Below are positions 20,299 through 39,766 of a DNA stretch of 64,000 nt, one piece after another. A model generated the notes under the pieces. It was not told the DNA's origin, searched no databases, and was given only the letters and a program-made list of their open reading frames with translations. Position 1 is the first letter of the stretch, and every line of letters starts with the position of its first letter. The DNA comes from Actinomyces gerencseriae DSM 6844 (GTDB lineage Bacteria > Actinomycetota > Actinomycetes > Actinomycetales > Actinomycetaceae), in contig NZ_KE386871.1 of the NCBI RefSeq assembly GCF_000429265.1, forward strand, positions 239,977 to 303,976. Direction: 5' to 3'. The position numbers were made by a program, and so were the translations under genes.

Positions 20299-20309
20299 GC
20301 GGTGATGCG
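20278..20309. terminator. 12-bp perfect stem spanning the stop of DUF6541 paralog 2
   Basis: CGCATCACCGCC (20278-20289) pairs perfectly with GGCGGTGATGCG (20298-20309) around an eight-base loop that contains most of the stop region. The left arm encodes the conserved ITA of the C-terminal motif. It is placed as an intrinsic terminator or an mRNA 3'-end stabiliser before paralog 3. Confidence 0.55.
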
Positions 20310-20418
20310 AACGGTGATGCATGATTCCCCCATCCCGTTCTCCCACCCGTCCCGGCGGGCCTGAGGCGTTCCGTCTCCCCGGGACCGTGGTGATGGCCGG
20401 CAGCCCGAAAGGAATTCC

Positions 20419-24565: not shown

Positions 24566-24756
24566 TCGGACTCCTTCCGTGGACTGGGACCGGGCTCGGG
24601 CCGGACTGGTGCCAAGTGTGCCCCATCCGGGGCCCGCCCTCAGGCGCTGCGGGTCCCGCCGGTCAGGGCCTCCACCGCCGAGCGCCGGCCGGCCTCCTCC
24701 CCGAGGACGCGGCGCCCGCCGGGATCCGGGAGGCCCGGCCGCTCCGGGACGAGAGC

Positions 24757-24845
24757 GCTCAGTCCCCGCAGGCGGTGATGCGCCCCTCACGCGCGGGTTG
24801 GTTGGGGGTCTGCGCGGGCTCAGTCCCCGCAGGCGGTGATGCGCC
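24757..24845 (-). repeat. Duplicated 28-bp 3' end of DUF6541 paralog 4
   Basis: Bases 24818-24845, which encode the end of paralog 4 including its stop, recur exactly at 24757-24784, 61 bases further downstream. The copy encodes the same TACGD-stop tail but has no gene in front of it. It looks like the remnant of another paralog or of an uneven recombination. The rest of the gap 24566-24756 shows no gene. Confidence 0.8.
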
Positions 24846-26826
24846 ACAGGCTGGCGGTGCCCGAGGAGGCCACCGGCTCCATGGCGTCCGTGGGCCAGTC
24901 GGCCAGGGCCCTGTCCCAGCGCAGGGGCGCCTGATGGTCCTCCCACCCCGTCCCGGTGCGGTCGACCCGCAGGTAGTACCGGGCACCGATCTCGCGCAGC
25001 AACTCGCAGGTCGTCGAGCCCGGCCGCAGATCGGGGGCCTGACCGGCGAGCCGGTCCGCGGCGGATCCGATCGTCGGCCTCGATCGCAGCGGGTACACGA
25101 CATCGACGCCCCCGAGCGACCACAGGTAGCTCGCCCCGCGCGCGGGCGTCCCCACGACCACGGCGTCGTCGGGAAGATGATCGCCCAGGCCGGCGATGAA
25201 ATCCGTCTCCTCGGGTGTGAGCATCGTGCCGTAGGCGATCCGATCGGGATCGTGGACCGACCTCACCAGCTCGGCCTGCAACGGCAGACGCCCCACGGCC
25301 GCGACGCACACGAGCGCGATGAGAGCGGCGACCGTCCTGCGCCCGGGACGCGCGTCGAGCAGATGACGCAGCCCCATGGCGGCGAGCACGAGACCGGGTA
25401 TCACGACGAGCGGCTGAATACGCGCCTTCTGCAAGTACCACAGAGCACCGATGCGCCGACCCCACCACTGGGGGCCGCCGACGAGCGCGACGAGGAGCAG
25501 CGCCAGCGCCGCCGTGATCAGCCACGGGCGCGCCCGGGGAACGCGCACCGCCGCCAGCACGGCCAGCCCGCACACCACGACTCCCAGCGGCAGCCCGATG
25601 CGCATCGGGAGCCCGTGGAAGCCGAACGGCCCGTACTGCGGCAGATCGAGAAGCCCCTGCCCCAGGGCTCCCAGGAGGTTCCCGCCGGAGCGGGGGTAGC
25701 TCCAGACCCAGACCAGGGCCTCGCGCATGACCCACGCCCCCACCAGGGCGCAGACGGCGAGCACTCCCAGGACGCGAAGCGTCATCGTCCTGCGCCGACC
25801 ACCGGCGCGGATCAGGCGCACGACAAGGGTGACGGCCGGCGGCCCGAGGAGCACCATGGTGTTGAAGGTCCCCGCGCCGTGGGCCAGGATGATCCCGGCC
25901 AGGGCGCCCGCGAACATCAAGCCGCTCATGAGCAGGCCGGATGGCGGCGGCGCCTCCGTCCGGACGTCCTTCCCGGGGGCGTCCTCGCAGGGCAGGCGGC
26001 GCAGCAGACGCAGCCCCAGGACCAGCACGCCGGGCAGGCAGACCACGCTCAGGGAGTAGGGCCACACCGCCAGGGTGCCCAGCAGCATCGTCGGAGCCCC
26101 CACCGTGGCGGCGCTCAGGACGGTGCCCAGCGCGGCCGCGGTACGGCTGCGGGGGCGGGCGTCGTCGTCGAGGGCCTCGACGAGCAGGCCGGCGATTCCG
26201 AGCGGCCAGGCCAGCGCCCCCACGACGAGCGCCATCGCGTTCGAGGCGACCGTCACGCCCGCCGGGAGCAATGCGACCACCCCGTGCCACACGGTCGGGT
26301 AGTAGGTCGGCGTCCCCTGGTACAGGGCCGCCATGCTCCCGAAGCTGGAGGCGTTCCCCACCTGGCGGATCGCCTGGACGGCGTTGAAGTGGAAGACGAT
26401 ATCGAAGGCCTGAGCCGGGGTGCTCATCGACCCCATGCCGATCAGCATCCCGACGGCGAGAATGAGGCACGCCGTCACCAGCCCGGCCGGCACGCGCGGA
26501 TCGGGGCGCCGGGGACCGGAGTCGTTCCGAGAGTCATCAGAGGCATCGGTGGAGCGGGTCCGGCTCCCGGGGAGAGCACGACGGACGGCCATCAGAAGAC
26601 CCGCGGCGAGAATCGTCAGTCCCGCGATGGCCACCCATCCCCATGGGCTCCAGGCCCGTCCGACGGACGCGGCCGCCAGCTCGGCGGTGCCGATGACGGC
26701 GCAGCTCAGCGGCAGCGCGGCGCTCGCCGCGCCCCAGCCCCGCACGCCCCCCAGGCGGGCCAGGAGCAGCCCGGGGACGATCAGGATCGCGCCCGCCAGC
26801 AGGACGCTCGCAATCGCGTGGATCAT
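24820..26826 (-). CDS. DUF6541-type multi-pass membrane protein, paralog 4
   Basis: The 668-residue protein is the most divergent paralog. It keeps the first-loop signature FDIVFHFNAVQAI (Asp142, His146), GNASSFGSM, YPTVWHGVVAL and the C-terminal WRITACGD, with a partner Cys in TTCELL. It has about twelve helices. The ATG overlaps the stop of the nucleotide-sugar dehydrogenase gene (ATGA), so it is translated with the enzyme that makes a uronic acid. Its job may concern the uronic-acid glycan rather than the galactan. Transferase activity is inferred, not shown. Confidence 0.72.
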   Translation of the reverse strand: MIHAIASVLLAGAILIVPGLLLARLGGVRGWGAASAALPLSCAVIGTAELAAASVGRAWSPWGWVAIAGLTILAAGLLMAVRRALPGSRTRSTDASDDSRNDSGPRRPDPRVPAGLVTACLILAVGMLIGMGSMSTPAQAFDIVFHFNAVQAIRQVGNASSFGSMAALYQGTPTYYPTVWHGVVALLPAGVTVASNAMALVVGALAWPLGIAGLLVEALDDDARPRSRTAAALGTVLSAATVGAPTMLLGTLAVWPYSLSVVCLPGVLVLGLRLLRRLPCEDAPGKDVRTEAPPPSGLLMSGLMFAGALAGIILAHGAGTFNTMVLLGPPAVTLVVRLIRAGGRRRTMTLRVLGVLAVCALVGAWVMREALVWVWSYPRSGGNLLGALGQGLLDLPQYGPFGFHGLPMRIGLPLGVVVCGLAVLAAVRVPRARPWLITAALALLLVALVGGPQWWGRRIGALWYLQKARIQPLVVIPGLVLAAMGLRHLLDARPGRRTVAALIALVCVAAVGRLPLQAELVRSVHDPDRIAYGTMLTPEETDFIAGLGDHLPDDAVVVGTPARGASYLWSLGGVDVVYPLRSRPTIGSAADRLAGQAPDLRPGSTTCELLREIGARYYLRVDRTGTGWEDHQAPLRWDRALADWPTDAMEPVASSGTASLWRITACGD

Positions 26827-28127
26827 TCGCCACCGCCGATCGTCAACCGGGGCGCACCGGTCCACTTGGCGGCATCGGTGGCGCGGCGCCCGTCCAGGAG
26901 GAGTCGCAGCCCGGGCAGGTCGGCGGGGGCGAGCTCGTGGTACTCGGGGTGGTCGGCCTGGACGATGGCGACGTCGACCGGCTCCCCCAAGTGGTAGGGG
27001 GTCCAGCCGAAGCCGGCCAGCTCCTCGTCGGAGTACATGGGGTCGTGCACCAGCACCTCGGCGCCGGCCTCGCGCAGCGCCTCCACGGTGGGGAAGACGC
27101 CGGAGAAGGCGGTCTCCCTGACCCGCCCGCGATAGGAGGCGCCCAGCACGACGGCGCGCAGGCCGTCCAGGGAGCCGAGCACCTCGATGGCGCGGCCCAC
27201 CGCGTAGGCGGGCATGGTCGCGTTGAAGAGGCGAGCGCTGCGGACCACCGTCGCGTCGGGATCCGTGGACAGGTACAGACGCGGGTAGACGGGGATGCAG
27301 TGGCCGCCCACCGCGATGCCGGGGTGGTGGATGTGGGAGTAGGGCTGGGAGTTGCAGGCCTCGATGACGCGCTCGATGTCGAAGCCGGCCCTGTCCGCGT
27401 AGACGGCGAACTGGTTGGCCAGGCCGATGTTGACGTCGCGGTAGGTGGTCTCGGCGAGCTTGGCCATCTCGGCGGCCTCGGCGGTGCCCATGTCCCACAC
27501 GCCGTTGGGACGGGGCAGGTCGTCGCGCTCGTCGAAGTCCAGGACGGACTCGTAGAAGGCGATGCCGGCCCGGGTGCCGGCCTCGTCCAGGCCGCCCACG
27601 AGCTTGGGGTAGCGGCGCAGATCGGCGAGGACGCGGCCGGTCAGGACCCGCTCGGGGCTGAAGACGAGGTGGAAGTCGGTTCCCTCCCTCAAGCCGCTGA
27701 TCTCCTCGATCATGGGCTTGAACCGCCCCCGCAGGGTGCCCACGGGCAGGGTGGTCTCGTAGGAGACGAGGGTGCCCGGGGTCAGGTGGGCGGCCAGGGA
27801 GCGGGTGGCGTCGTCCATCCAGGCGAAGTCCGGCTCCCAGGTGGCGTCGTCGACGAACAGGGGGACCACGAGGACGACGGCGTCCGCGCCCGGAACCGCC
27901 TCGGCGTACTCGGTGGTGGCCCGCAGGGCGCCGTTGCCGGTGGCGGGGCTGAGCGCGGCGAGCTTCTCGGCCATACGGGCCTCGCCGGGGAAGGGCTCGG
28001 CACCGGCGTTGACGGCCTCGACGACGGCGGGGGCGACGTCGACCCCGATGACCTCATGACCTTTGTCGGCGTACTGGACCGCCAGGGGCAGCCCGATCTT
28101 GCCCAGGGCGACGACGGCGATGCGCAT
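26823..28127 (-). CDS. wbpA: UDP-N-acetylglucosamine 6-dehydrogenase-type enzyme (WbpA/WecC family)
   Basis: The 434-residue NAD-dependent nucleotide-sugar dehydrogenase has an N-terminal Rossmann motif VVALGKIGLPLA (5-16), the central helix region AKLAETTYRDVNIGLANQ and the active-site cysteine in GGHCIPVYP (Cys277). A C-terminal UDP-binding domain follows. The length equals that of WbpA. Such enzymes oxidise C6 of UDP-GlcNAc (WbpA) or UDP-ManNAc (WecC). The presence of WbpB, WbpE, WbpD and WbpI homologs nearby favours UDP-GlcNAc. AAAGGA precedes the ATG at 28127. It leads the operon with DUF6541 paralog 4. Confidence 0.85.
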   Translation of the reverse strand: MRIAVVALGKIGLPLAVQYADKGHEVIGVDVAPAVVEAVNAGAEPFPGEARMAEKLAALSPATGNGALRATTEYAEAVPGADAVVLVVPLFVDDATWEPDFAWMDDATRSLAAHLTPGTLVSYETTLPVGTLRGRFKPMIEEISGLREGTDFHLVFSPERVLTGRVLADLRRYPKLVGGLDEAGTRAGIAFYESVLDFDERDDLPRPNGVWDMGTAEAAEMAKLAETTYRDVNIGLANQFAVYADRAGFDIERVIEACNSQPYSHIHHPGIAVGGHCIPVYPRLYLSTDPDATVVRSARLFNATMPAYAVGRAIEVLGSLDGLRAVVLGASYRGRVRETAFSGVFPTVEALREAGAEVLVHDPMYSDEELAGFGWTPYHLGEPVDVAIVQADHPEYHELAPADLPGLRLLLDGRRATDAAKWTGAPRLTIGGGE

Positions 28128-28218
28128 ACGGGTCCTTTCAAGACGGCCGGTTCCTGGCGCCATCGTATGCCACTGGAATGCTTCTGAAACACTTCAGCGA
28201 GAAGTCGGGTCCCATGCG

Positions 28219-28270
28219 GATTTTATATGACAAACAGGCAACATCCATACATATCATACATAAACGATGC
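28219..28270. other. AT-rich intergenic island
   Basis: Bases 28221-28270 contain 16 G+C out of 50, in a genome region that is otherwise about 70% G+C. The stretch has repeated CATACATA-like words and separates two divergent operons. It probably holds promoter elements; no gene is seen. Confidence 0.6.
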
Positions 28271-28285
28271 ACAGGATCCATGCAA
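28257..28285 (-). promoter_or_regulatory. Candidate promoter of the wbpA operon
   Basis: On the minus strand TTGCAT (28285-28280) and TATGTA (28262-28257) are 17 bases apart within the AT-rich island. This would give a leader of about 120 bases before wbpA. An overlapping TATGAT (28258-28253) is an alternative -10. Confidence 0.35.
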
Positions 28286-28352
28286 GGTTCATGAGGAAGC
28301 ATCTCGTCGCGCGCGCAGGAACCGTTCGAGAACGGGACGGGAGCCCGTCTTC

Positions 28353-28358
28353 TAGACT
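28353..28358 (+). promoter_or_regulatory. -10 box TAGACT, leaderless start for the 28365 gene
   Basis: TAGACT ends six bases before the GTG at 28365. A perfect palindrome CCGTTCGAGAACGG (28322-28335) covers the -35 position 17 bases upstream and could be a regulator site. Confidence 0.5.
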
Positions 28359-28364
28359 GCACCC

Positions 28365-29513
28365 GTGAGCCGACGCCCGACGATCCTGGTCATCTCCTTC
28401 TCGCCGATTCACCGGGACGCGCGAGTGCTGCGCGAGATCAGCGCGCTGGCCGAGCTCGGCGACGTGACCTCCGCGGGCTACGGAGTCGCACCGCCCCACG
28501 TGGTCGACCACGTCCGGGTCCCGGACGGGGCGGCGTCCCTCCCGCAGACGCCGGCGGGAGTCCTCGGCCTCGCCCTGCGCCGGCTGCGGGCGTCCGAGCT
28601 GGCCGCCCCGGCCGCGCGCGACGCGGTCCGACGCCTGAGCGGGCACGAGTTCGACGTGGTGGTCGCCAATGACGCGCGCGCGATCCCAACGGCATTCGCG
28701 GTCGCCCACGGCGCACCGGTATGGGCGGACATGCACGAGTGGGCGCCCGAGGAGCGCACCCATGTGACCAGCTGGCGCCTCCTGGTGGCCCCGCTCATGG
28801 ACCACATCTGCCGCGAGTACCTGCCGCGGTGCGCCGCCGTGACGACGGTGGCCGGTTCGATCGCCGACCTGTATCGCGAGCACTATGGCGTCGCGCCGCG
28901 TCTGGTGCGCAACGCCGCGCCCTACGCCGACCTGGAGCCCTCGGCGCCGCGCGAGGACGGCACGGTCCGTCTGGTGCACTCGGGCGGAGCCGTGGCGGGC
29001 CGCAGCATCGAGACCATGATCGACGCCGTCGGAGCCGCGTCGCCGCATCTCACCCTCGACCTGTACCTGGTCCCCGGCAACGACGGCGGCCGCTACCTGC
29101 GTGCGCTGCGCCGCCGGGCGCGGGGATGCAGCCGGATCGCCTTCCACGAGCCCGTCGCCCCGGCCGAGCTGCCGGGCGAGCTCAACGGGTACGACGTCGG
29201 CATCTACTGGATCCCGCCGTTCAACACCAACGCGCGCCTGGCGCTGCCGAACAAGATCTTCGACTTCGTTCAGGCCCGGCTCGCGGTCGCCGCGGGGCCG
29301 ACACCGGAGATGGCCCGCATCATCAACGACTTCGGCATCGGCGTGGTGACCGAGGACTTCGAGCCCGGCTCGATCGTCACGGCGCTCAACGCCCTGACGC
29401 CCGAGGACGTGGCCGTCTACAAGTCCCGCTGCGCCCGGGCCGCCCGCGAGCTCAGCTTCGAGCACGAGGCGGCCACGATCCGGGAGATCATCGACGAGCT
29501 GTCGCCGCGCTGA
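28365..29513 (+). CDS. GT4-like (GT-B fold) glycosyltransferase
   Basis: The 382-residue cytoplasmic protein starts with ILVISFSPIHRDARVLREIS, a phrase typical of GT-B enzymes (the N-terminal nucleotide-like fold with RDARV). The C-terminal half has the sugar-nucleotide-binding region with GIYWIPPFNTNARLALPNK followed by FDFVQARLAV. The expected product is transfer of one sugar to a lipid-linked chain. The GTG start is leaderless (TAGACT box). It is divergent from the wbpA operon and converges on a flippase gene, so it stands as a single-gene unit. Confidence 0.75.
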   Translation: MSRRPTILVISFSPIHRDARVLREISALAELGDVTSAGYGVAPPHVVDHVRVPDGAASLPQTPAGVLGLALRRLRASELAAPAARDAVRRLSGHEFDVVVANDARAIPTAFAVAHGAPVWADMHEWAPEERTHVTSWRLLVAPLMDHICREYLPRCAAVTTVAGSIADLYREHYGVAPRLVRNAAPYADLEPSAPREDGTVRLVHSGGAVAGRSIETMIDAVGAASPHLTLDLYLVPGNDGGRYLRALRRRARGCSRIAFHEPVAPAELPGELNGYDVGIYWIPPFNTNARLALPNKIFDFVQARLAVAAGPTPEMARIINDFGIGVVTEDFEPGSIVTALNALTPEDVAVYKSRCARAARELSFEHEAATIREIIDELSPR

Positions 29514-29536
29514 CGCGCGGGCGCGCCGACCCGGGC

Positions 29537-30862
29537 TCACCGGCCCCCCTCGTCCCCCGCCGGAGCCGGCGGGAGCCCGCCGCGGTCGTAATCGCGTGCG
29601 ACGACGACCGCCATGACCAGCTGGACGACCAGCATGCCCGCCATGAGCCAGCCCAGGACGACGGCCGTCGGCATCAGGTCCAGCCGGCTGAGCCACAGCC
29701 AGCCCAGAGGGGCGAGGCAATAGGCGACGGCGAAGGCGAGCAGCCGGCTCTGCCGCTCGGCGACGATGAAGATGTTGGAGATCGGGGAGGTCATGACGGT
29801 CATGAACAACCAGGGCGTCAGCGCCCTGGCGTAGTAGCCGGCGTCGTGCCAGGTGGCGCCGAACACGAGGGGGAAGAGCCACGGCGCGAGCAGGTAGAGC
29901 GCGGCGAAGGGCACGACGGCGGCCAGGCACGCCCGCCACAGCACTGCGCGCACGAGCGGCAGCATGGTGCCGGGCGCGGCGTCCGCGAGCCTCTTGAGGA
30001 AGACCAGGGACACCGAGCCGGCGATGAGGGCCACCGGGACCTGCAGGATGTTCCAGGCGAGCTGGAACTGGCCGAGCGCGGCCACCGAGGTGGCCCCGAT
30101 CAGCAGGTTGATGCCACTGTTCCTCACCGAGTCCACGAAGACGTTGGGACCGTTGAGCAGGGGCATCCTCCGGTAGCGGTGGGCCATCGCCCGCATCGTG
30201 GGGGCGCCGGCGCCCAGGGGCTCGCGCAGCTCGGGCGTGCGCAGATGCAGGCGGAGCAGCGCCACCAGCTGCCCGGTCACCGTCCCGATGATGATCGCCG
30301 GCAGTCCCCCGTGCAGAGCCAGACCCGCCGCCAGCTGGAAGCAGGGCACGGCCGTGGACTGGAGAACCCGGTTCCTGGCGATGTCGCCGAAGCGCCCCTG
30401 ACGCGTGAGCCAGTACTGAATATTGGTGATCTGCGAGACGAGGAAGACGGTGACACCGGCGCCCATGAGCCACCACATGAGCTCGCCCGAGTGGTGGTAA
30501 TGGTCCCGCAGGATCCGGGCGCCGGCCATGCAGACGGCGGAGGTCAGCAAGGACGTCACGAGCACGCAGCGCGTCGCCAGGCGCTGGAGCACCCGCGCGG
30601 CCGCGTCATCATCGGGCATGATGATCGTCACGTCGAAGCGCAGCGCCGCGAAGGTGATGACGAAGCCGGTGATGGACCCGTACACGCCGAACAGGCCCTT
30701 GTCGACGTCGGAGTAGACCCGTGCGATGGGAATCTGCAGGAGGAAGATGACACCCTGGGAGGCGGCCGTCCCGGACACGAGCGTGAGGATGGACCGGAGG
30801 ACGGGGCTGCGCTGCGCCGGGCCGCGCCACCCGGGCCGCCCAGCACCCATCGGCTTGATCAT
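29537..30862 (-). CDS. Wzx-like flippase, third in the window
   Basis: The 441-residue protein has about twelve to fourteen hydrophobic segments after a short basic N-terminus. It shows flippase-like phrases such as IPIARVYSDVDKGLFGVYGS and SLVFLKRLADAAPG, which match the polysaccharide transport family. It lies downstream of a GT4 gene in the same direction, 76 bases away, with a GC hairpin between them. The neighbouring uronic-acid genes suggest it flips that repeat unit, but the link is positional only. The ATG at 30862 has no clear ribosome site. Confidence 0.75.
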   Translation of the reverse strand: MIKPMGAGRPGWRGPAQRSPVLRSILTLVSGTAASQGVIFLLQIPIARVYSDVDKGLFGVYGSITGFVITFAALRFDVTIIMPDDDAAARVLQRLATRCVLVTSLLTSAVCMAGARILRDHYHHSGELMWWLMGAGVTVFLVSQITNIQYWLTRQGRFGDIARNRVLQSTAVPCFQLAAGLALHGGLPAIIIGTVTGQLVALLRLHLRTPELREPLGAGAPTMRAMAHRYRRMPLLNGPNVFVDSVRNSGINLLIGATSVAALGQFQLAWNILQVPVALIAGSVSLVFLKRLADAAPGTMLPLVRAVLWRACLAAVVPFAALYLLAPWLFPLVFGATWHDAGYYARALTPWLFMTVMTSPISNIFIVAERQSRLLAFAVAYCLAPLGWLWLSRLDLMPTAVVLGWLMAGMLVVQLVMAVVVARDYDRGGLPPAPAGDEGGR

Positions 30863-30910
30863 GCGGGTATTGAATCATGGGGCGACGCCGCCGATCATCC
30901 GGCGGGTGCG

Positions 30911-30936
30911 GGCCCCGGACCCGTCCGGTCGGGGCC
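30911..30936 (-). terminator. Hairpin after the 30939 glycosyltransferase gene
   Basis: GGCCCCG (30911-30917) pairs with CGGGGCC (30930-30936) directly after the stop of the GT4 gene. It is a GC stem without a U-tract, and may reduce read-through into the flippase gene. Confidence 0.4.
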
Positions 30937-30938
30937 GG

Positions 30939-31985
30939 TCAGAGCCGATCGAAGCGCTCGACCAGCCGTGCGACCGCCCGCCGCGGCGAGTGGTGCTCCG
31001 CCACCCAGGCGCGTCCGTTCGTCACCCGCTCGCCGTCCAGGGCCCGCCCGACTCCCCGCACGACGGCCTCCACCATGTCCGACCGGTCCACGGGCCCGCC
31101 CAGGACCGGGACATCGCGTGTGGTGTCGTGAGTCCCGTCGTACCACCGGCGATCCAGGGCCATCACCGTCGTGACCCCGCTCCCGACGGCCTCGAGCTCG
31201 GAGACCCCCATGCAGCCGGTCATCTGCCCGACCGCGACCGACCCGGTCGCCAGCCACCGGGCGTAGGCGTCGTGGCCCATTCTCGGGCGCAGCTCGACTC
31301 CGTGGTCGCGCGCCGCGCGCGGAGCTCCCTCGCCCCAGTCGAGCCCCTCGAGCACGATCGAGTCCCCGTACGCGGACCGGAGCGCGTCGAGCACCTCCAC
31401 CTGGAGCTCCCCGCCCTTGGCGGCGTCCCAGCGGGAGGCGAAGAGCACCCGGAACGGCCCGTGCTCGACCGGCTCAGCCGGCTCGGCCGGCTCGTGCCCG
31501 ACCAGCTCATCGACATCGACGACGACGGGCTGCAGCACGGCGTCCGGTCGCAGGTCCAGGACATGCTCGGCCAGGTCCGGAGTCGTGTAGTAGACGTCCC
31601 GCGCCCGGCGCACCGCGCGCGTCACGAGATCGGCGTAGCGCGCCTGGTACCTGCGCACGCGGATGTCCGTGCCGTGCAGATGCAGGACGCAGGGCCTGCG
31701 CAGCCAGTCGGTGTGCGCCGTCACGGTGGCCCCGTGCACATCGAGCAGATCGGCGCGCATGGCCCTGCGGACGAGCCCGGCCTCCCACCGGGCGCCGCGA
31801 AGCGCGCGCCGCAGCGCCCGGGTCCGGGGGGACCAGCCCGGGTCCGCCCGAGCGGTGTCGTACACGTCCCACCGCAGGCCCTCCGCCCGCGCTCGACGCA
31901 CCAGCGCGCTGCCGATGCGGGCGATGTCATTGACGTGCAGGACCCTCACCCCGCCGGCCGCGCCGTCGGCCACGCCATCAGTCAC
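30939..31985 (-). CDS. GT4-family glycosyltransferase
   Basis: The 348-residue protein has a GT-B layout. The N-terminal domain (VRVLHVNDIARIGSALVRRA) is followed by HLHGTDIRVRRYQ and by the donor-binding half starting at FRVLFASRWDAAKGGELQVE. It ends with the GxxE-type loop near GVSELEAVGSGVTTV, where the glutamate matches the GT4 EX7E region. The GTG at 31985 is preceded at six bases by CACAAT, so it may be leaderless. It is divergent from the WbpI-like epimerase gene, 60 bases away, and probably works on the same glycan. Confidence 0.78.
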   Translation of the reverse strand: MTDGVADGAAGGVRVLHVNDIARIGSALVRRARAEGLRWDVYDTARADPGWSPRTRALRRALRGARWEAGLVRRAMRADLLDVHGATVTAHTDWLRRPCVLHLHGTDIRVRRYQARYADLVTRAVRRARDVYYTTPDLAEHVLDLRPDAVLQPVVVDVDELVGHEPAEPAEPVEHGPFRVLFASRWDAAKGGELQVEVLDALRSAYGDSIVLEGLDWGEGAPRAARDHGVELRPRMGHDAYARWLATGSVAVGQMTGCMGVSELEAVGSGVTTVMALDRRWYDGTHDTTRDVPVLGGPVDRSDMVEAVVRGVGRALDGERVTNGRAWVAEHHSPRRAVARLVERFDRL

Positions 31986-31991
31986 GCCGCC

Positions 31992-31997
31992 ATTGTG
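31992..31997 (-). promoter_or_regulatory. Weak -10 box CACAAT before the 31985 gene
   Basis: CACAAT, preceded by TGC, ends six bases before the GTG on the minus strand. It fits the leaderless spacing seen elsewhere, but departs from TANNNT. Confidence 0.3.
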
Positions 31998-32033
31998 GCA
32001 TGACTGCGGCACGGCGGCCCCGGCCCGTCCCGG

Positions 32034-32039
32034 TAGGGT
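32034..32039 (+). promoter_or_regulatory. -10 box TAGGGT, leaderless start for wbpI
   Basis: TAGGGT ends six bases before the ATG at 32046. There is no ribosome site. It lies back to back with the promoter of the divergent GT4 gene. Confidence 0.5.
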
Positions 32040-32045
32040 CTCGCC

Positions 32046-33134
32046 ATGCACGTTCTGTCCGTGGTCGGCGCCCGCCCGCAGTTCGTCAAGCTCGCCCCCA
32101 TCGACGCCGCCCTCCGCGCCGCCGGGATCCGCCACACGATCGTGCACACCGGCCAGCACTACGACCCGATGCTCTCGGAGGTCTTCTTCCGCGACCTGGG
32201 CATCGGCGCCCCCGACGTCCACATGGGGGTCGGCTCGGGCTCCCACGGCGTGCAGACCGGGGCGATGCTCGCCGCCATGGACACCGTGCTCGCCCAGCGC
32301 GCCCCGGACCGGGTACTGGTCTACGGGGACACGAACTCCACGCTCGCCGGAGCGCTGTCGGCCGTCAAGCTGCACGTGCCGGTGGCCCATCTGGAGGCGG
32401 GACTGCGATCGTTCAACCGCGCCATGCCCGAGGAGATCAATCGGGTCCTGACCGATCACGCGGCGGACCTGCTGCTCGCACCGACGGCGGTCGGGGCGGC
32501 CCACCTGGCCGAGGAGGGGCTCGCGGCGCGCACAGTCGTCGTCGGGGACGTCATGACCGACGTGCTGCTGCGCACGCGCGACCAGGTGGTCGACTCCCCC
32601 GTCCCGATCGTGACGGAGCCGGGACCGGTCACGGGCCACCGGTCGTACTCGCTGGCCACGATCCACCGGGCGGAGAACACCGACGACGCCGACCGCCTGC
32701 GGTCCGTCCTGGACTCGCTGACGCGGATCGACCACCCCGTCGTCCTGCTCGCCCACCCGCGACTGGTCGCCAGGTGCGCCGAGCACGGGATCGTGCTGGA
32801 GGACCGGGGATCCCTGCGGATCCACCCGCCGCTGGCCTACCCCGAGCTCATCGCCTCCGTCATGCACGCGCGCGGCGTCGTCACCGACTCGGGCGGACTG
32901 CAGAAGGAGGCCTTCCTCCTGCGGGTGCCGTGCACCACCGTGCGCCCGCAGACCGAGTGGGTGGAGACCGTCGAGCTGGGTTGGAACGTGCTCGTCGAGC
33001 CGGGACCGCGCCTGGTGGCGGAGGCCTCGCGCCCGCGACCCGCCGAGCCGGAGGAGGCCCTGGCCCATCCCTACGGCGACGGGCGCGCCGCCGAGCACGT
33101 CGCCCGCGTGCTCATCGAGCGCGCCCGGCGCTGA
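32046..33134 (+). CDS. wbpI: UDP-N-acetyl sugar 2-epimerase (WbpI/WecB family)
   Basis: The 362-residue enzyme has the non-hydrolysing epimerase hallmarks VVGARPQFVKLAP (6-18), YGDTNSTLAGALSAVKL, HLEAGLRSFNRAMPEE and DSGGLQKEAFLLRVPC. The motif after this reads RPQTEWVETVELGWN. The TEWVE form is what I expect for WbpI/WlbD, which epimerise UDP-2,3-diacetamido-glucuronate, whereas WecB usually has TERPE. With WbpA, WbpB, WbpE and WbpD homologs close by, WbpI is the favoured call. WecB activity on UDP-GlcNAc is the alternative. The gene stands alone between divergent and convergent GT genes. Confidence 0.82.
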   Translation: MHVLSVVGARPQFVKLAPIDAALRAAGIRHTIVHTGQHYDPMLSEVFFRDLGIGAPDVHMGVGSGSHGVQTGAMLAAMDTVLAQRAPDRVLVYGDTNSTLAGALSAVKLHVPVAHLEAGLRSFNRAMPEEINRVLTDHAADLLLAPTAVGAAHLAEEGLAARTVVVGDVMTDVLLRTRDQVVDSPVPIVTEPGPVTGHRSYSLATIHRAENTDDADRLRSVLDSLTRIDHPVVLLAHPRLVARCAEHGIVLEDRGSLRIHPPLAYPELIASVMHARGVVTDSGGLQKEAFLLRVPCTTVRPQTEWVETVELGWNVLVEPGPRLVAEASRPRPAEPEEALAHPYGDGRAAEHVARVLIERARR

Positions 33135-33149
33135 ACCGCGCCCGACGGC

Positions 33150-34418
33150 TCAGTCGTCGAGGAGCACCCGCGCCGCCTCGTCGAGCGCGGCCGTCATGGA
33201 CCGGTGCTCGAGCACCCAGCGACGCAGTCGCTGCGACCGCTCCCGGATCGATCCCCGGGCGCGCGCGGTCCCCCCGTCGTCGATGGCGGCCAGCAGGGCG
33301 GCCTCCACGGCGCGGGCGTCGTAGTCGGCGACCCATCCCAGCCCGGCCCGCAGCAGGTCGGCGCGCGCAGGACCGGGGCCCGCGTAGACCACGGGCGTCC
33401 CGCAGGCCAGGGCGGCGAAGATCTTGGTGGGGTAGGCGAAGTCGTACCCGAGCCCGGGGCGGATCGACACCACGGACGCCACGGCGCCGCGCTGCCAGGC
33501 CGCGGCCTCGTCGGGCGCCACCACGGGAACCAGGTGGATGCGGGGGTCGTCCGCGGCGAGCTCGCGCAGGTGATCCCAGTCGCTGCCCTGCCCCAGGTAG
33601 ACCAGCTCGACCTGCGGACGGGTCCGGTGGACCAGACGGAGGGCCTCGACGAAGATGCCCGCCCCCTGCCACTCCGAGGCGGTGCCCGCGTAGAGGAGGT
33701 AGGGGGCCCTCGGGGCGTCGGAGGCGACCGGGCCGTCGAGCGTGAACATCTCGGTGTCGATGCCGTTGGGCACGACAGTCACCCGGCGCGCCCCCAGCTC
33801 GGCGACACGCCGGGCCACGCCGCTGCTGACCGTCAGCACGCGGCGGGCGCCGGTCAGCGCGAAGCGCTCCAGCGATCGCAGCGCCGCGACGACCCAGCCA
33901 GGCGCCCCCGTGGACTGCGAGGCGTCGGACCACACGTCCGCCGCGTAGTAGGCGTAGGGAACGCCCCGCAGGGCCGCGATCACGCGTACGACGGCCCCCG
34001 TCGTGGGCGGTGGCTCCGCCACCAGGAGGTCGGGGCGCCGACCGCCCAGAAGCCGCAGGGCGAGGGGCAGGTCGAAGCTCATGTACTGGGCGTAGCCGCG
34101 GATGTAGCCGGTCTCGTCGCGCAACGCGGGCATCGACCTGACCGTCACCCCTGGATCGTCGGGCGCGACGGCTCCCGGTGGGCTGGAGGTGAGGACGCTC
34201 ACCTCGGCGCCGCGCCGGGCCAGGGCGCGCGCCAGCCCGTGCTGCCTGAGCGCGGCCGCGGCCGGCTCGGGGGCGTACAGGCGGGTCGCGAGCACCACTC
34301 GCGGAGCGCGCTCCGAGTCGGGGGCGGCGCGCCCGCGCCGACGGCGGATCGCGACCGCCGCCGCAGCGCCGACCGCCCCGAGCACCAGGGCCGCGACGCC
34401 CCTCGGCACGGGCCTCAC
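33150..34418 (-). CDS. Membrane-anchored GT4-family glycosyltransferase
   Basis: The 422-residue protein has one N-terminal membrane helix (about 7-23) followed by an arginine-rich stop-transfer patch and then a GT-B enzyme. The acceptor half begins at VVLATRLYAPEPAAAALRQH. The donor half has VVPNGIDTEMF, YLLYAGTASEWQGA and PTKIFAALACGTPVVYAG, typical of WbuB/WcaI-like transferases. The GTG overlaps the stop of the WbpB-like gene (GTGA), so it is the last gene of the wbpD-wbpE-wbpB operon. It probably adds the diacetamido-uronic acid or its neighbour. Confidence 0.82.
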   Translation of the reverse strand: MRPVPRGVAALVLGAVGAAAAVAIRRRRGRAAPDSERAPRVVLATRLYAPEPAAAALRQHGLARALARRGAEVSVLTSSPPGAVAPDDPGVTVRSMPALRDETGYIRGYAQYMSFDLPLALRLLGGRRPDLLVAEPPPTTGAVVRVIAALRGVPYAYYAADVWSDASQSTGAPGWVVAALRSLERFALTGARRVLTVSSGVARRVAELGARRVTVVPNGIDTEMFTLDGPVASDAPRAPYLLYAGTASEWQGAGIFVEALRLVHRTRPQVELVYLGQGSDWDHLRELAADDPRIHLVPVVAPDEAAAWQRGAVASVVSIRPGLGYDFAYPTKIFAALACGTPVVYAGPGPARADLLRAGLGWVADYDARAVEAALLAAIDDGGTARARGSIRERSQRLRRWVLEHRSMTAALDEAARVLLDD

Positions 34419-35419
34419 AGCTCGACCGTCCGGTCGCCGGCGGCCGAGGCGAGGACGGCCTCGACAACGGTCAGGGTGGTCACGCCGTCCGACATGGTCG
34501 CGGCACTGCTGCCGGTGCCGAGCACGGCATCGCGGAAGTGCTCCTGCTCCAGGGCCAGGGGCTCGCGCTTGGCGATGGCGTAGCGGATGACGTCCCCCTC
34601 GGTGACGCCCCGGAAGTTGGCGACCTGGTCCCAGGTGGAGGCGACGGTGCCGTTGGCGTGGAAGGTCAGGTCCCCGGTGAGGGTGTCGGCCACGAGGGCG
34701 CCCTTCTCGCCGGTGACGATGATGACGCGCTCCTTGAAGGGAGTCAGCCAGTTGACCGTGTGGGAGACGATGACGCCGTTGGCCAGGACTCCGTTGGCCA
34801 CGACCATGTCCTCGTTCTCGCGCCCGGAGCGGTGGGCGACCTGGGCGCTGATGGCGCGGTAGGGCGAGTCGGCGACCCAGGAGGTCAGGTCGATGTCGTG
34901 GGTGGCCAGGTCCTTGACCACGCCGACGTCGCTGATGCGCGCGGGGAAGGGACCCTGGCGGCGGGTCAGGACCTGGTAGACCTGCCCGAGCTCACCGGCG
35001 TCGAGGCGGTGGCGCAGCTCCCGCAGGGCGGGGTTGCAGCGCTCGACGTAGCCGACGGCCCCCACCAGGCCGCGGGAGGCGAAGGCGTCGGCGACGCGAC
35101 GGCCGGCCTCCACGCTGTGCGCGATGGGCTTCTCGACCATGGTGGGCACCCCCGCCTCGGCCAGGGCCAGGGCGACCCGCTCGTGGTGGACGGTGGGCAC
35201 GGCCACCACGGCGGCGTCCAGCCCGACGTCGATCAGCGCGGCGACGTCCGGCAGCGGCTCGAGCTCACCGGCGACGCCGAATCGGTCGCCGCCGGGATCG
35301 GCCACGGCCACGAGGTCCATGCCCACGGTCGCCCGGATGACCCGGGCGTGATGACGTCCCATGGAGCCCAGGCCGATCAGGCCCACGCGCAGGCCCGGGG
35401 TGCGTGCCGTCCCGCTCAT
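34415..35419 (-). CDS. wbpB: Gfo/Idh/MocA-type nucleotide-sugar 3-dehydrogenase (WbpB/WlbA-like)
   Basis: The 334-residue NAD-dependent oxidoreductase has the N-terminal LIGLGSMGRHHARV (14-27), EKP with Lys97 and the KDLATHDIDL segment (Lys169, His174), which carries the active-site pair of WlbA/WbpB. In the Wbp pathway it oxidises C3 of UDP-GlcNAc-uronate before transamination. The start is three bases after the stop of the aminotransferase gene and the end overlaps the GT4 gene. The order acetyltransferase, aminotransferase, oxidoreductase in one operon supports this assignment over other Gfo/Idh functions. Confidence 0.82.
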   Translation of the reverse strand: MSGTARTPGLRVGLIGLGSMGRHHARVIRATVGMDLVAVADPGGDRFGVAGELEPLPDVAALIDVGLDAAVVAVPTVHHERVALALAEAGVPTMVEKPIAHSVEAGRRVADAFASRGLVGAVGYVERCNPALRELRHRLDAGELGQVYQVLTRRQGPFPARISDVGVVKDLATHDIDLTSWVADSPYRAISAQVAHRSGRENEDMVVANGVLANGVIVSHTVNWLTPFKERVIIVTGEKGALVADTLTGDLTFHANGTVASTWDQVANFRGVTEGDVIRYAIAKREPLALEQEHFRDAVLGTGSSAATMSDGVTTLTVVEAVLASAAGDRTVEL

Positions 35420-35422
35420 GGG

Positions 35423-36544
35423 TCAGGCTCCTGCGCTCACGGTCGCGGTGACCGCCTCGACGATGCGCGCCAGGTCGGCCTCGGACAGGGACGGGTGGAC
35501 CGGCAGGGACAGGCACTCGCGGGCGGCCCTCTCGGTGCCCGGCAGCTCGACTCCCGGCGCGTAGGGCGCCAGGGAGTCCAGCCGGTGGTTGGGGATCGGG
35601 TAGTAGACGCCGGTGCCGACCCGCCACTCGTCCCTCAGCACGGCCTGGATGCGGTCGCGCTCGGCGGCGGTGGCGCCCTCGAAGCGGATCGTGTACTGGT
35701 GGTAGACGTGGGTGCGACCGTCGGGCTCGGTGGGCGTGATCACGCCCGCCGCGTCGGCCAGGCCCTCGTTCAGCGCCGCCGCGTTGGCCCGGCGCCGCGC
35801 GGTCCACCCGGCCAGCCCGCCCAGCTGCACCCGGCCCACGGCCGCGGACACGTCGGTCATGCGGTTGTTCAGCCCCACCAGCTCGTTGGCGTACTGCCTC
35901 TCCATGCCCTGGTTGCGCAGCAGGCGGACCCGGCGCGCCAGTGCGGCGTCACCGGTGGTGACCATGCCCCCCTCCAGGGAGGTCATGTTCTTGGTCGGGT
36001 AGAAGGAGAAGGATCCCCACGCCCCGAAGGCGCCCACCGGAACGGAGCCGATGGCGGCGCCATGGGCCTGGGCGCAGTCCTCGAAGACGGCCAGGCCGTG
36101 GGCCTCGGCGATCCGCATGATCGCGGGCATGTTGGCCGGTAGGCCGTACAGGTGCACCACCTCGATCGCCGCGGTGCGCTCGGTGATGGCGGCCTCCACG
36201 CTCGCCGGGTCCAGGGTGAAGGTGGCGAGGTCGATGTCGGCGAAGACGGGGCGGGCGCCGGCGAGCACCACCGAGTTGGCCGTGGCCGCGAAGGTGAAGG
36301 ACGGCACGATCACCTCGGCGTCCTCGGGCAGGCCGCTGGCCAGCGTCGCCAGGTGCTGGGCGGAGGTGCCCGAGTTGACCGCGACCGCGTGGGCGCCGCC
36401 GACGACCCGCTCGGAGAACTCCTCCTCGAAGGCGGCGACCTGCGGGCCCTGGACCACCATGCCCGAGGCGATGACGGCGTCGACGGCGGAGCGCTCCCGG
36501 GCCCCGATGATCGGCCTGGCAGCGGGGATGAACTCATGCGGCAT
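35423..36544 (-). CDS. wbpE: PLP-dependent sugar 3-aminotransferase (DegT/DnrJ/EryC1 family, WbpE-like)
   Basis: The 373-residue enzyme has the DegT layout. It shows NSGTSAQHLATLA near the start, EDCAQAHGA with the PLP-ring aspartate, and the Schiff-base lysine in FYPTKNMTSLEGG (Lys185). It would place an amino group on the 3-keto UDP-GlcNAc-uronate made by the WbpB homolog. Its ATG overlaps the acetyltransferase stop by one base (TGATG). Other sugar aminotransferases share these motifs, so the position of the amino group is inferred from neighbours. Confidence 0.85.
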   Translation of the reverse strand: MPHEFIPAARPIIGARERSAVDAVIASGMVVQGPQVAAFEEEFSERVVGGAHAVAVNSGTSAQHLATLASGLPEDAEVIVPSFTFAATANSVVLAGARPVFADIDLATFTLDPASVEAAITERTAAIEVVHLYGLPANMPAIMRIAEAHGLAVFEDCAQAHGAAIGSVPVGAFGAWGSFSFYPTKNMTSLEGGMVTTGDAALARRVRLLRNQGMERQYANELVGLNNRMTDVSAAVGRVQLGGLAGWTARRRANAAALNEGLADAAGVITPTEPDGRTHVYHQYTIRFEGATAAERDRIQAVLRDEWRVGTGVYYPIPNHRLDSLAPYAPGVELPGTERAARECLSLPVHPSLSEADLARIVEAVTATVSAGA

Positions 36545-37149
36545 CAGGCACGCACCTCTCGGATCGTGTTCTCGTCCTCCTCGTACAGCGCCCCCGTGGC
36601 CGGGCAGCGCCATCGTCGCGACCCGTCGCTCCCGGCGGCGACCAGCGGCTCGCCCGCGCGCCCCACCCAGCCCACTCGCCTGGCGGGCACGCCGGCGACG
36701 AGCGCGTGCGCCGGCACGTCCCCGGTGACGACGGCGCCCGCAGCCACGGTGGCCCACGCCCCGATGCGCGCCGGGGCGACGCAGACGGCGCGCGCGCCGA
36801 TGGAGGCGCCCTCGTCGATGGCGACGCCCACCGGCCGCCAGTCCGAGGCGGACTTGAGCGACCCGTCCGGGTTGACCGCCCGCGGGAAGCGGTCGTTGGT
36901 CAGCGTCGCCGCCGGGCCGATGAACACCCCGTCGGCCAGCACCGCCGGCTCGTACACCAGGGCGTAGTTCTGCACCTTGCAGTGGCGCCCCATGCGCACG
37001 CCCTCGCCGATGTAGGCGCCGCGGCCCACGATGCAGCCCCGACCCAGCACAGCGCGCTCGCGCACCTGCGCCAGGTGCCACACCGCCGATCCGTCACCGA
37101 TGACGGCGGCCTCGGACACATCGGCGGACGGAGCGATACGAGTGGCCAC
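36544..37149 (-). CDS. wbpD: Hexapeptide-repeat sugar N-acetyltransferase (WbpD/WlbB-like)
   Basis: The 201-residue protein is a left-handed beta-helix built from hexapeptide repeats. They run from DVSEAAVIGDGSAVWHLAQV through IVGRGAYIGEGVRMG to ARIGAWATVAAGAVV. The segment KVQNYALVYEPAVLADGVFI is very characteristic of WbpD/WlbB enzymes that acetylate the 3-amino group. AAGGAG precedes the GTG at 37149. It is the first gene of a four-gene operon. About 35 extra residues follow the helix (WRCPATGALYEEDE), as in several family members. Confidence 0.85.
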   Translation of the reverse strand: MATRIAPSADVSEAAVIGDGSAVWHLAQVRERAVLGRGCIVGRGAYIGEGVRMGRHCKVQNYALVYEPAVLADGVFIGPAATLTNDRFPRAVNPDGSLKSASDWRPVGVAIDEGASIGARAVCVAPARIGAWATVAAGAVVTGDVPAHALVAGVPARRVGWVGRAGEPLVAAGSDGSRRWRCPATGALYEEDENTIREVRA

Positions 37150-37267: not shown

Positions 37268-37987
37268 GTGACGTCTTCCCCGGACCTCCCCATCCCCGCA
37301 GAATCCACGTGCTCCGACGAACTCACCGGTACCTGGCTCGTCATTCCGCTGTACAACGAGGCGCAGGTCGTCCGCGACGTCATCGAGGAGGCCCGCCGGA
37401 CCTTCCCCCGCATCGTCGCCGTCGACGACGGCTCGCGGGACGACTCCGCGGCGCGGGCCGAGTCCGCGGGAGCCCTCGTCGTCCGCCACCCCGTCAACCT
37501 GGGGCAGGGCGCGGCCCTGCAGACCGGCATCAGCTACGTGCTGGAGCGCACCGACGCGCGCTACCTCATCACCTTCGACGCCGACGGGCAGCACTCGGTC
37601 GCCGACGCCGCCGCGATGGCGGCCGCCGCCCGGGACGAGGACCTGGCGATCGTGCTCGGCTCCCGGTTCCTCGAGGGCCCCTCACCAGTCGGTCCGCTCA
37701 AGCGCCTGGTGCTCGCCACGGCGGCCGCGGTCGCGTCCCGCACGACCGGTATGCGCCTGAGCGACGCGCACAACGGCCTGAGGCTGCTGCGGCGCGACGC
37801 GGCCGAGCGCCTCGACCTGAGGCAGAACCGCATGGCGCACGCCAGCGAGATCATCCGCCAGCTCGCGGCCACCGGTCTGCCCTGGAGGGAGTTCCCGGTC
37901 CGCATCGCCTACACCGAGTACTCGAGGGCCAAGGGGCAGTCGCTGCTCAACTCCGTCAATATCCTCGTCGATCTGATCTTCTCCTGA
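37268..37987 (+). CDS. GT2 of the polyprenyl-phosphate sugar synthase type
   Basis: The 239-residue GT-A enzyme has WLVIPLYNEAQVVRDVI, AVDDGSRDDSA and FDADGQHSV with the DxD pair. The later segment SDAHNGLRLLRRDAAE is the NG-RxF-like region of polyprenyl-phosphate sugar synthases. It has no membrane helices. A DUF2304 gene follows 18 bases downstream, repeating the arrangement at 6,676-7,800. It probably loads a sugar on polyprenyl phosphate for use outside the membrane. The two GT2 proteins differ enough to use different sugars. Confidence 0.78.
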   Translation: MTSSPDLPIPAESTCSDELTGTWLVIPLYNEAQVVRDVIEEARRTFPRIVAVDDGSRDDSAARAESAGALVVRHPVNLGQGAALQTGISYVLERTDARYLITFDADGQHSVADAAAMAAAARDEDLAIVLGSRFLEGPSPVGPLKRLVLATAAAVASRTTGMRLSDAHNGLRLLRRDAAERLDLRQNRMAHASEIIRQLAATGLPWREFPVRIAYTEYSRAKGQSLLNSVNILVDLIFS

Positions 37988-38005: not shown

Positions 38006-38386
38006 ATGAGCTCCCAGCTGATCATCAAGTCCGTCCTCCTCATCTGCGTCGCGGGCCTGGGGTGGATGATGCTGCGCTCCCCCGGCGGGACCCGGCACCA
38101 GGCCGGGCGCAGGCTCGCGACCCTGGCCTTCGTGCTGTTCGCCATCGTCGCCATCGCGGCGCCCTCCCTCACCACGCGCCTGGCCCACCTCGTCGGCGTG
38201 GGACGGGGGGCCGACCTGCTCCTCTACGCCCTCGTCATCGCCCTCCTGGCCCAGATCCTGTCGTCTTTCCGGCGCAACGCCAGCCGCGAGCGGCAGATCA
38301 CGCGCCTGGCGCGCCGCATCGCCCTGGACACGGCGCCCGACCCCCATCAGGACCCTCCGGAACGGAACGCGGCGCAAGCGCAGTAG
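38006..38386 (+). CDS. DUF2304 membrane protein paired with a GT2
   Basis: The 126-residue protein has three hydrophobic segments (about 5-22, 35-55 and 68-87). A basic, heptad-like helix follows (RRNASRERQITRLARRIAL), then a disordered tail. The topology and length match the other DUF2304 protein in the window. GGAA lies seven bases before the ATG. It is the second gene of the pair with the GT2 ending at 37987 and is inferred to anchor or regulate it. Confidence 0.72.
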   Translation: MSSQLIIKSVLLICVAGLGWMMLRSPGGTRHQAGRRLATLAFVLFAIVAIAAPSLTTRLAHLVGVGRGADLLLYALVIALLAQILSSFRRNASRERQITRLARRIALDTAPDPHQDPPERNAAQAQ

Positions 38387-38515: not shown

Positions 38516-39766
38516 GTGTCCACGCCACCCGTACGCCATGCAGCGCGCGAGCTGCGCCACCGCCTGCTGCGCAACGTCATGCTGAGCCTGCTGGCGGCCA
38601 TGCTCTTCGTGACCACGGGCGCCTGGGCCGTCTACCGCGACCTCCAAGGGCGGCTCAGCGTCTGGGACATCGACGACATCCTCTCGGAGGAGGATCGCCC
38701 GCCGGGCCCCACGGACCACTCCTTCGAGGGACGCGCCGTCAACATCCTCGTCATGGGCTCGGACTCGCGCAACGGCCAGGTGGTCGATGACGGCACCGAG
38801 GGCATGCGCTCGGACACGGCCATGATCGTGCACCTGTCCGAGGATCGCAGCCGCATGGACGTCGTCTCGATCCCCCGCGACACGATGGTCCAGATACCGT
38901 CGTGCAAGCTGCCCGACGGCTCGGAGAGCGATCCCTCCTCCTACGCCATCTTCAACTCCGCCTTCTCCACCGGCGCCGACAACTCCTCCAACCCCGACGA
39001 CGTCAAGTTCGCCGCGGCCTGCACGATCAAGACCGTCGAGAAGCTCACCAACATCCGCATCGACGAGTACATGGTGGTCGACTTCACCGGCTTCGAGAAG
39101 ATAGTGGACTCCCTGGGCGGCGTGCCCATGTACGTCGAGGAGGACGTCGACGACGACAGGGCGGACCTCCATCTCACCAAGGGCTGCAACACGCTCAACG
39201 GCGCCCAGGCCCTGGGCTACGCGCGGGCCCGCTACTCCCTGGGCGACGGCTCCGACATGTCCCGCATCGGACGCCAGCAGCAGCTGGTCGCGGCGATCAT
39301 GCGCACCGCCCAGTCGAAGAACCTCCTGACGGACATGCCGACCCTCTACGACTTCGCGACCTCCTCGCTGGAGACGCTCACCGTCAGCCCGGGGCTCGGA
39401 GGCGTGGACAAGCTCGCGGGCCTGGCCAACAGCGCCGCCAGCATCGGCATGGACAAGATCAGCTTCATCACCATGCCCGTCGAGCAGGATCCCTACGACG
39501 CCAACCGCGTGGCGCCCAGCGACCAGGCCGACGACGTCTGGGACGCCATGCGCGACGACAAGCCGGTCCCCGAGGAGGCCGTCTCCCTGTCCGCCGACGG
39601 GACCTCCCCCAGCCAGGAGGCGGCCCCCGCCACGGGCGACTCCACCGGGGGCAGCGCCTCCACCGGGTCCAAGACCGAGCCCGGGACCACTCCCGCCGAC
39701 CCGGGAGGCTCGGGGGCCGGATCGGGTGACCCGGCGACCGTCGATCCCGCGACGCAGTGCCGGTGA
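38516..39766 (+). CDS. LytR-CpsA-Psr (LCP) family glycopolymer ligase
   Basis: The 416-residue protein has a short cytoplasmic tail, one membrane helix (about 20-40) and an extracellular LCP domain (about 75-290). Hallmarks are LVMGSDSRNG with the diphosphate-binding region, MRSDTAMIVHL, SIPRDTMVQIP, the GCNTLNGAQALGYARARYS segment and RIGRQQQLV. LCP proteins transfer undecaprenyl-linked glycans to peptidoglycan. The final 70 residues are Ser/Thr/Gly/Pro-rich and probably extended. Its stop overlaps the next LCP gene (GTGA). Its place just after the polysaccharide locus suggests that it attaches those products. Confidence 0.9.
   Translation: MSTPPVRHAARELRHRLLRNVMLSLLAAMLFVTTGAWAVYRDLQGRLSVWDIDDILSEEDRPPGPTDHSFEGRAVNILVMGSDSRNGQVVDDGTEGMRSDTAMIVHLSEDRSRMDVVSIPRDTMVQIPSCKLPDGSESDPSSYAIFNSAFSTGADNSSNPDDVKFAAACTIKTVEKLTNIRIDEYMVVDFTGFEKIVDSLGGVPMYVEEDVDDDRADLHLTKGCNTLNGAQALGYARARYSLGDGSDMSRIGRQQQLVAAIMRTAQSKNLLTDMPTLYDFATSSLETLTVSPGLGGVDKLAGLANSAASIGMDKISFITMPVEQDPYDANRVAPSDQADDVWDAMRDDKPVPEEAVSLSADGTSPSQEAAPATGDSTGGSASTGSKTEPGTTPADPGGSGAGSGDPATVDPATQCR

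Follow-up and report, generated by a model that had tools for sequence, protein, structure and literature searches.

A predicted utr-type pathway to UDP-2,3-diacetamido-2,3-dideoxy-D-mannuronic acid in a wall glycopolymer locus of Actinomyces gerencseriae

The closest described systems for uridine diphosphate (UDP)-activated 2,3-diacetamido-2,3-dideoxy-D-mannuronic acid (UDP-ManNAc3NAcA) are the Wbp pathway of Pseudomonas aeruginosa (WbpA, WbpB, WbpE, WbpD and WbpI), in which oxidation of C6 comes first, and the teichuronic-acid-like utr genes of Streptomyces griseus, which are predicted to make this nucleotide sugar (PMC13274773). Nuclear magnetic resonance (NMR) shows that S. griseus, which has utrH, forms a polymer of N-acetylgalactosamine (GalNAc) and ManNAc3NAcA with one gluco-configured residue (GlcNAc3NAcA) at the reducing end. 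S. antibioticus, described there as having no utrE, utrF and utrH, has GlcNAc3NAcA in its polymer by NMR, and whether a given umbrella toxin acts on a Streptomyces species depends on how this polymer differs between species (PMC13274773). Here we analyze a stretch of 64,000 nucleotides from Actinomyces gerencseriae DSM 6844 (contig NZ_KE386871.1, positions 239,977 to 303,976), called the window below and used for all coordinates of the locus. It holds five genes, named A, B, E, D and I after the Wbp roles. Judged from its sequence, the locus very probably makes UDP-ManNAc3NAcA from UDP-N-acetylglucosamine (UDP-GlcNAc) for a wall glycopolymer, by a utr-type pathway of actinomycetes.

An earlier note on this DNA had placed five open reading frames (ORFs) here and assigned them to broad families, and an ORF check together with Pfam matches for all five bears out both. 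A (26823..28163, minus strand) is a nucleotide-sugar 6-dehydrogenase in the WbpA role and UtrD-like (Pfam, TIGR03026; best PDB match 4r16, 206 bits). Its start may lie at M13, as PDB alignments begin at residue 13; same-genus matches begin at residues 2–11. I (32046..33134, plus strand) is a predicted 2-epimerase of UDP-GlcNAc3NAcA in the WbpI role and UtrH-like. B (34415..35419, minus) is a predicted sugar 3-dehydrogenase of the Gfo/Idh/MocA type, E (35423..36544, minus) a predicted pyridoxal-phosphate-dependent 3-aminotransferase of the DegT type (PF01041, 384 bits), and D (36544..37149, minus) a predicted N-acetyltransferase of the hexapeptide acyltransferase type. The motifs TEWVE in the epimerase and QNYALVYEPA in the acetyltransferase are both present as noted before. 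D, E, B and a glycosyltransferase gene follow one another closely, head to tail, on the minus strand, with a TGATG overlap between D and E (which sets the ATG start of E at 36544), a 3-base gap between E and B, and a GTGA overlap between B and the glycosyltransferase. I stands alone on the plus strand, and A lies on the minus strand upstream of a DUF6541 gene. Because of the tight packing, the three transcription units proposed earlier are a fair reading of the sequence. At the cut-offs given below, A, B, D and E each have one match in their own genome, and the second epimerase of this genome, on another contig, carries the Arg signature (TERPE-type).

The best PDB match of I is the proven UDP-GlcNAc3NAcA 2-epimerase of Thermus thermophilus (8sxv, 335 bits), ahead of 4neq (260 bits) and 1f6d (124 bits), which we take to be the UDP-GlcNAc epimerases of Methanocaldococcus jannaschii and Escherichia coli (WecB), respectively. 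According to a study of the T. thermophilus enzyme, UDP-GlcNAc epimerases point an Arg to the C3 hydroxyl; Trp307 stands in its place in the T. thermophilus enzyme, with Ala18 and Tyr96 as other changes (PMC10622841). At the T. thermophilus positions 12, 17, 18, 96, 98, 120, 306 and 307, I reads R, K, L, Y, D, E, E and W. It is intact, with its catalytic residues present, and carries two of the three substrate-linked residues (Trp307 and Tyr96, with Leu at position 18). In a 63-row tree, one branch (support 100/99) splits 47 Trp rows from 15 Arg (WecB-like) rows. Both I and the T. thermophilus enzyme fall on the Trp side, which agrees with the earlier contrast of TEWVE with WecB-type epimerases, and I lies within a 17-row actinobacterial clade (100/100) that includes S. 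halstedii. I is thus supported as a predicted WbpI-type UDP-GlcNAc3NAcA 2-epimerase. The NCBIfam model wecB (TIGR00236) also passes its cut-off for I (258.6 against 210.15 bits). We do not read this name as a function because plasmid records likewise give it to Trp epimerases of complete Wbp-like clusters.

The acetyltransferase D finds its best PDB match in 3mqg (128 bits; the next match reaches 74), an entry labelled lipopolysaccharide acetyltransferase that is presumably WlbB. In a 52-row tree, D lies inside a 20-row actinobacterial clade (98/93) and on the same side (38 rows, 100/99) as a named wbp cluster (L016), apart from the archaeal acetyltransferases, although long branches meet at that split and drew a program warning. 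D is accordingly classed, from sequence, as a predicted WbpD/WlbB-type acetyltransferase.

The 3-dehydrogenase B is of a different descent. The WbpB structures 3oa2 and 3o9z are absent from its 55 PDB matches at E 1e-3, and a WbpB profile gives it zero score. Comparison with WbpB-family proteins of Pseudomonas frederiksbergensis (itself 574 bits to P. aeruginosa WbpB 3oa2), Deinococcus and Sulfitobacter yields partial alignments at E 0.8, 0.005 and 0.004, which amounts to no useful similarity. A branch of 2.97 (100/100) sets the 10 WbpB rows of a 62-row tree apart as a clade, and 3q2k and 3q2i, which we take to be WlbA, form part of a separate 7-row clade (98/94). B falls within a 24-row actinobacterial clade (100/100), with Schaalia, Trueperella and Arcanobacterium as neighbors, and this is nested with archaeal enzymes and 7bvj in a clade of 32 rows (96/92). 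The entry 7bvj, labelled an NAD-binding oxidoreductase in the PDB and presumably GnnA, scores 77 bits to B and sits on a long branch. The closest NCBIfam model is the archaeal UDP-GlcNAc 3-dehydrogenase NF040723 (194 bits, below its cut-off of 450), and identity to the Haloferax mediterranei enzyme is 32% over 309 columns. On this placement B is neither WbpB nor WlbA, being assigned to the archaeal/7bvj lineage. In other families of this phylum, namely f34, f37, f41 and f75, B belongs to a further lineage. A genome scan for the epimerase returned 80 loci; in its 30 Actinomycetota loci (L090–L119), a B is found by profile in 21 and a WbpB type in none, against a WbpB type in 5 of the 50 other loci (L122, L129, L157, L165, L168). 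In L129 (759–2339), a contig labelled Bacteroidetes, the WbpB is almost identical to T. thermophilus 3o9z (end branches 0.03 and 0.005) and the epimerase is likewise a near one, which points to a recent transfer or a mislabelled contig.

E and A likewise stand outside the Wbp groups. For E, a 64-row tree has a 32-row clade (100/100) with 7b0d, 2oga (which we take to be DesV) and the aminotransferase of L016, a stand-in for WbpE that scores 600 bits to it. E lies outside this clade. It falls among 17 actinobacterial rows (100/99), and these form a group of 21 together with haloarchaeal rows (94/89, a fork that is not firm). Its best NCBIfam model, PseC, reaches 257 bits, below the cut-off of 423.5. 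A belongs to 20 actinobacterial rows (100/100) whose sister group is a pair of haloarchaeal rows (99/95). It stands apart from a group of 24 rows (100/99) that includes a gene annotated wbpA, which serves here as the comparison for P. aeruginosa WbpA. That group is not pure in function, as it also holds dehydrogenases that lie beside Arg epimerases. By these trees, A, B and E come from lineages other than WbpA, WbpB and WbpE, with nearest sisters that are haloarchaeal or archaeal. Of the earlier claim that all five enzymes match the Wbp enzymes in type, the part on D and I stands and the part on A, B and E does not. Even so, the neighbors of the oxidoreductase and the aminotransferase in the trees are enzymes predicted to catalyze the same class of reaction, not enzymes of unrelated sugars. 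The separate descent of A, B and E appears to be new, as the portions of the related literature consulted carry no statement of it.

The set is conserved as a unit. Fifty-nine relatives, own genome included, were scanned with cut-offs set after a gap in the scores had been seen (A 1e-150, B and E 1e-100, D 1e-70, I 1e-120). Forty-one genomes have both A and B, neither of which occurs outside them; E occurs in 42, D in 43 and I in 36, and all 36 genomes with I also hold A, B, E and D. Since the genomes are related, these counts are not independent events. The gene set is not a product of chance, because A, B, E and D are all present in 31 of the 37 genus members (own included) and D, E and B lie side by side in all nine genus stretches read that carry the set. 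One relative (G012) has B and E each split in two pieces. Five relatives have A, B, E and D without I (G003, G007, G015, G040, G049); G007 and G015 are single contigs, and the absence in G049 may be an assembly gap because that assembly has about 500 contigs. These relatives parallel S. antibioticus. About 400 kb from the I-less cluster of G015, short epimerase-like fragments (68%) lie in different frames (C1, 2109766–2110156), and similar fragments occur in G022. In G028, only E remains (82%; L022, 8383–9714), beside the two genes for LytR-CpsA-Psr (LCP) proteins; the cut-offs above give no match to A, B, D or I in that genome. A wider scan of 236 genomes of the phylum finds A (E 1e-80) in 12, accompanied by B (E 1e-50) in 12, D (E 1e-45) in nine and an I of at least 49% identity in eight. 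Five of the 17 genomes with B have no A at E 1e-80. A plasmid of Streptomyces sp. NBC_00057 (L013, 11013–16026) carries an E and B pair (52% and 54% to the window) beside genes for a TauD dioxygenase, an FAD oxidase and phosphopantetheine-binding proteins. An ORF over the latter genes gives a D-like match (42%, 120 bits), and no A or I was found in the 31-kb stretch; the pair perhaps serves a 3-amino sugar in a natural product.

The epimerase alone is more widespread: a match at E 1e-60 occurs in 67 of the 236 genomes, 57 of which have no B at E 1e-50. This allowed the residue at position 307 to be compared with the neighboring genes in 22 hand-picked epimerase loci (17 of these 67 genomes, four relatives and the window's own), chosen before their neighboring genes were seen and after the phylum results for the pathway genes were seen. 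L063 and L065 (known D or B matches in the genome), L080 (3.4 kb) and L083 (a repeat) were left out of the count, and some stretches are short (L069 spans 5.5 kb). A B, D or E gene lies within 10 kb of 9 of 11 Trp epimerases and of none of 11 Arg epimerases (Fisher p 0.0002).

A locus of S. halstedii (L115) connects the window to the utr genes. One strand carries E, B, a family 2 glycosyltransferase with a TarS linker, and A; the opposite strand carries D, an acyltransferase-3 and I. This is the utr order as described. The A, B, D, E and I of this locus all fall in the clades of the window's proteins. Because all five clades are shared with this utr-like locus, we regard the window as an orthologous version of the utr-type system.

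From the gene content, families, lineages, co-occurrence and key residues of I observed here, we infer substrates, steps, sugar and wall destination as follows. A would oxidize C6 and B C3, E would aminate C3, D would acetylate the new amine and I would invert C2. The local glycosyltransferases and a probable flippase would then take UDP-ManNAc3NAcA into a wall glycopolymer, which the adjacent LCP proteins would attach to the wall. The diacetamido-mannuronic acid product proposed earlier is thus retained, on the strength of the 335-bit match to the T. thermophilus enzyme, the Trp clade, the 3mqg match of D and the S. halstedii locus. A rare acidic diamino sugar is in this way tied to a locus conserved across the genus as well as in many further actinomycetes, and the assumption that all five enzymes are Wbp orthologues is corrected. 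Two testable questions follow: on which substrate B acts, and whether a genome with I can be expected to have a manno wall sugar and one without I a gluco sugar.

Several points weigh against this reading. Position 18 of I is Leu, typical of UDP-GlcNAc epimerases, and not Ala. The role of Ala18 was noted for one enzyme; each of the 30 Actinomycetota matches from the genome scan, that of S. halstedii among them, has Leu there, other Trp epimerases vary, and Ala is found in the epimerases L054–L056 of G202, G257 and G172, three f58 genomes whose A and B are of the window type. Tyr96 is a weak marker, being present in 3 of 11 Arg epimerases as well. Among the 11 Trp loci, L059 and L068 are without a B, D or E neighbor, and L063 (G276), outside the count, combines an Arg epimerase with a wbpA-group dehydrogenase and a window-type D in a stretch that has no window-type B. 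No contrast emerges from the 80 loci of the genome scan, with a B, D or E neighbor beside 57 of 80 Trp query matches and 3 of 3 further Arg epimerases. We know of no sugar analysis of this organism. No report of a diacetamido sugar in Actinomyces was recognized in the literature on Actinomyces and actinobacterial walls, in which subscription journals are thinly covered, making this absence a weak sign. Kinship with utr rests on S. halstedii, as S. griseus is not among the 80 loci returned and stands outside the comparison; moreover, the utr enzyme steps are predictions and the polymer alone was determined (PMC13274773).

The steps could also run in another order, and whatever the descent, the WbpA-first order could still be the right one. 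In a reordered route, B, E and D would convert UDP-GlcNAc to its 3-acetamido derivative UDP-GlcNAc3NAc, a dedicated A would make the uronic acid and I would invert C2. The product would be convergent with that of Pseudomonas, assembled by archaeal-like A, B and E and bacterial D and I, and the gain or loss of I would decide whether the wall sugar is gluco or manno. C3 oxidation first is plausible, though unproven, because the nearest named kinds of B (GnnA and the archaeal model) act on UDP-GlcNAc, the D-E-B unit lies apart from A, and E and B occur with a D-like match and no A or I found in the 31-kb stretch of the Streptomyces plasmid. The presence of A in all 41 relatives with B speaks against this order, and we hold the scheme as a whole to be tentative, with somewhat lower odds than even. 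If the plasmid, the UDP-GlcNAc-directed kin of B and the five phylum genomes with B and no detected A are read further, they would also suit two parallel routes, with A and I making UDP-N-acetylmannosaminuronic acid (UDP-ManNAcA) and B, E and D making UDP-GlcNAc3NAc without a carboxylate. We consider this improbable: I carries Trp in place of the Arg of UDP-GlcNAc epimerases, every relative with I at the cut-offs used, among the 59 scanned, also has A, B, D and E, and the Streptomyces polymers carry diacetamido uronic acids (PMC13274773). In addition, Brevibacterium retains an Arg epimerase together with a Cap5O-clade dehydrogenase besides the Trp set. A WecB/WecC route to UDP-ManNAcA for A and I was itself considered and rejected because of the Trp position, the tree and the co-occurrence. 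The Brevibacterium locus (L109, B. renqingii), with the Arg epimerase and Cap5O-clade dehydrogenase next to a Trp epimerase and a window-type dehydrogenase, is a case in which two routes to acidic amino sugars coexist.

A true Wbp pathway by descent, with five orthologues of WbpA, WbpB, WbpE, WbpD and WbpI acting in the WbpA-first order, would have the same five predicted activities, and D and I do fall on the Wbp side. It is very unlikely given the separation of B from both WbpB and the WlbA structures, the silence of the WbpB profile on B, and the positions of E outside the clade of the WbpE stand-in and of A outside the group with annotated wbpA. The polymer sugar might instead be mainly the gluco form, as the five relatives with four genes and no I and the presence of both forms in the S. 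griseus polymer (PMC13274773) would allow, or might carry another N-acyl or an acetamidino group, of which the 3-acetamidino variant of a Methanococcus glycan is an example. With an intact I that has its catalytic residues in the own genome, we give this little chance too, and UDP-ManNAc3NAcA remains the product we favor.

Further genes surround the five. Downstream of A lies a DUF6541 membrane protein (24820..26475, minus; PF20176, 312 bits), one of four in or near the locus (16156–26475; starts 16156, 18286, 20419 and 24820). Between A and I stand a family 4-like glycosyltransferase (28365..29513, plus; PF13439, E 2.4e-8), a probable Wzx-like polysaccharide flippase (29537..30862, minus; weak PF01943 match, E 0.0022, below cut-off) and an unassigned protein (30939..32003, minus) with no Pfam match up to E 0.5 and a 68% relative in L037, perhaps a glycosyltransferase by context only. 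The family 4 glycosyltransferase overlapping B covers 33150..34418 (minus; PF13579, PF13692). Beyond D, the plus strand carries a family 2 glycosyltransferase like polyprenyl-phosphate GalNAc synthase (37268..37987; NF058614, 266 bits, below the cut-off of 370), a DUF2304 membrane protein (38006..38386; PF10066) and two LCP proteins (38516..39766 and 39757..41259; both PF03816), the first a probable wall-polymer ligase. A short-chain dehydrogenase/reductase sugar epimerase (41364..42353, minus; PF01370, 173 bits) possibly supplies UDP-GalNAc or UDP-Gal.

The known systems share different parts with the window. GnnA and GnnB, which make UDP-GlcNAc3N for lipid A, are related through B, which lies in the clade of 7bvj (presumably GnnA); their sugar has no carboxylate, unlike that predicted for the window pathway. 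In another actinobacterium, Cutibacterium acnes, a review reports a lipoglycan sugar thought to be a diaminohexuronic acid, and Cutibacterium porci has relatives of A, I and B. The haloarchaeal D-E-B-A-I clusters of Haloferax mediterranei (L017) and Halolamina (L164) provide the nearest sisters of A and, less firmly, of E. Their B shares the 32-row clade with the window B, yet at the low identity given above for Haloferax, and their D is of another kind. The P. aeruginosa Wbp set has the same predicted end product and its D and I on the same side as those of the window, whereas A, B and E of the window come from other lineages. Several features set the window apart from the utr genes of S. griseus: its LCP and DUF6541 genes, its probable flippase, its different glycosyltransferases, and the lack of a TarS-linker match in those of its genes that were scanned. 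The five predicted roles in making the sugar are the same in both.

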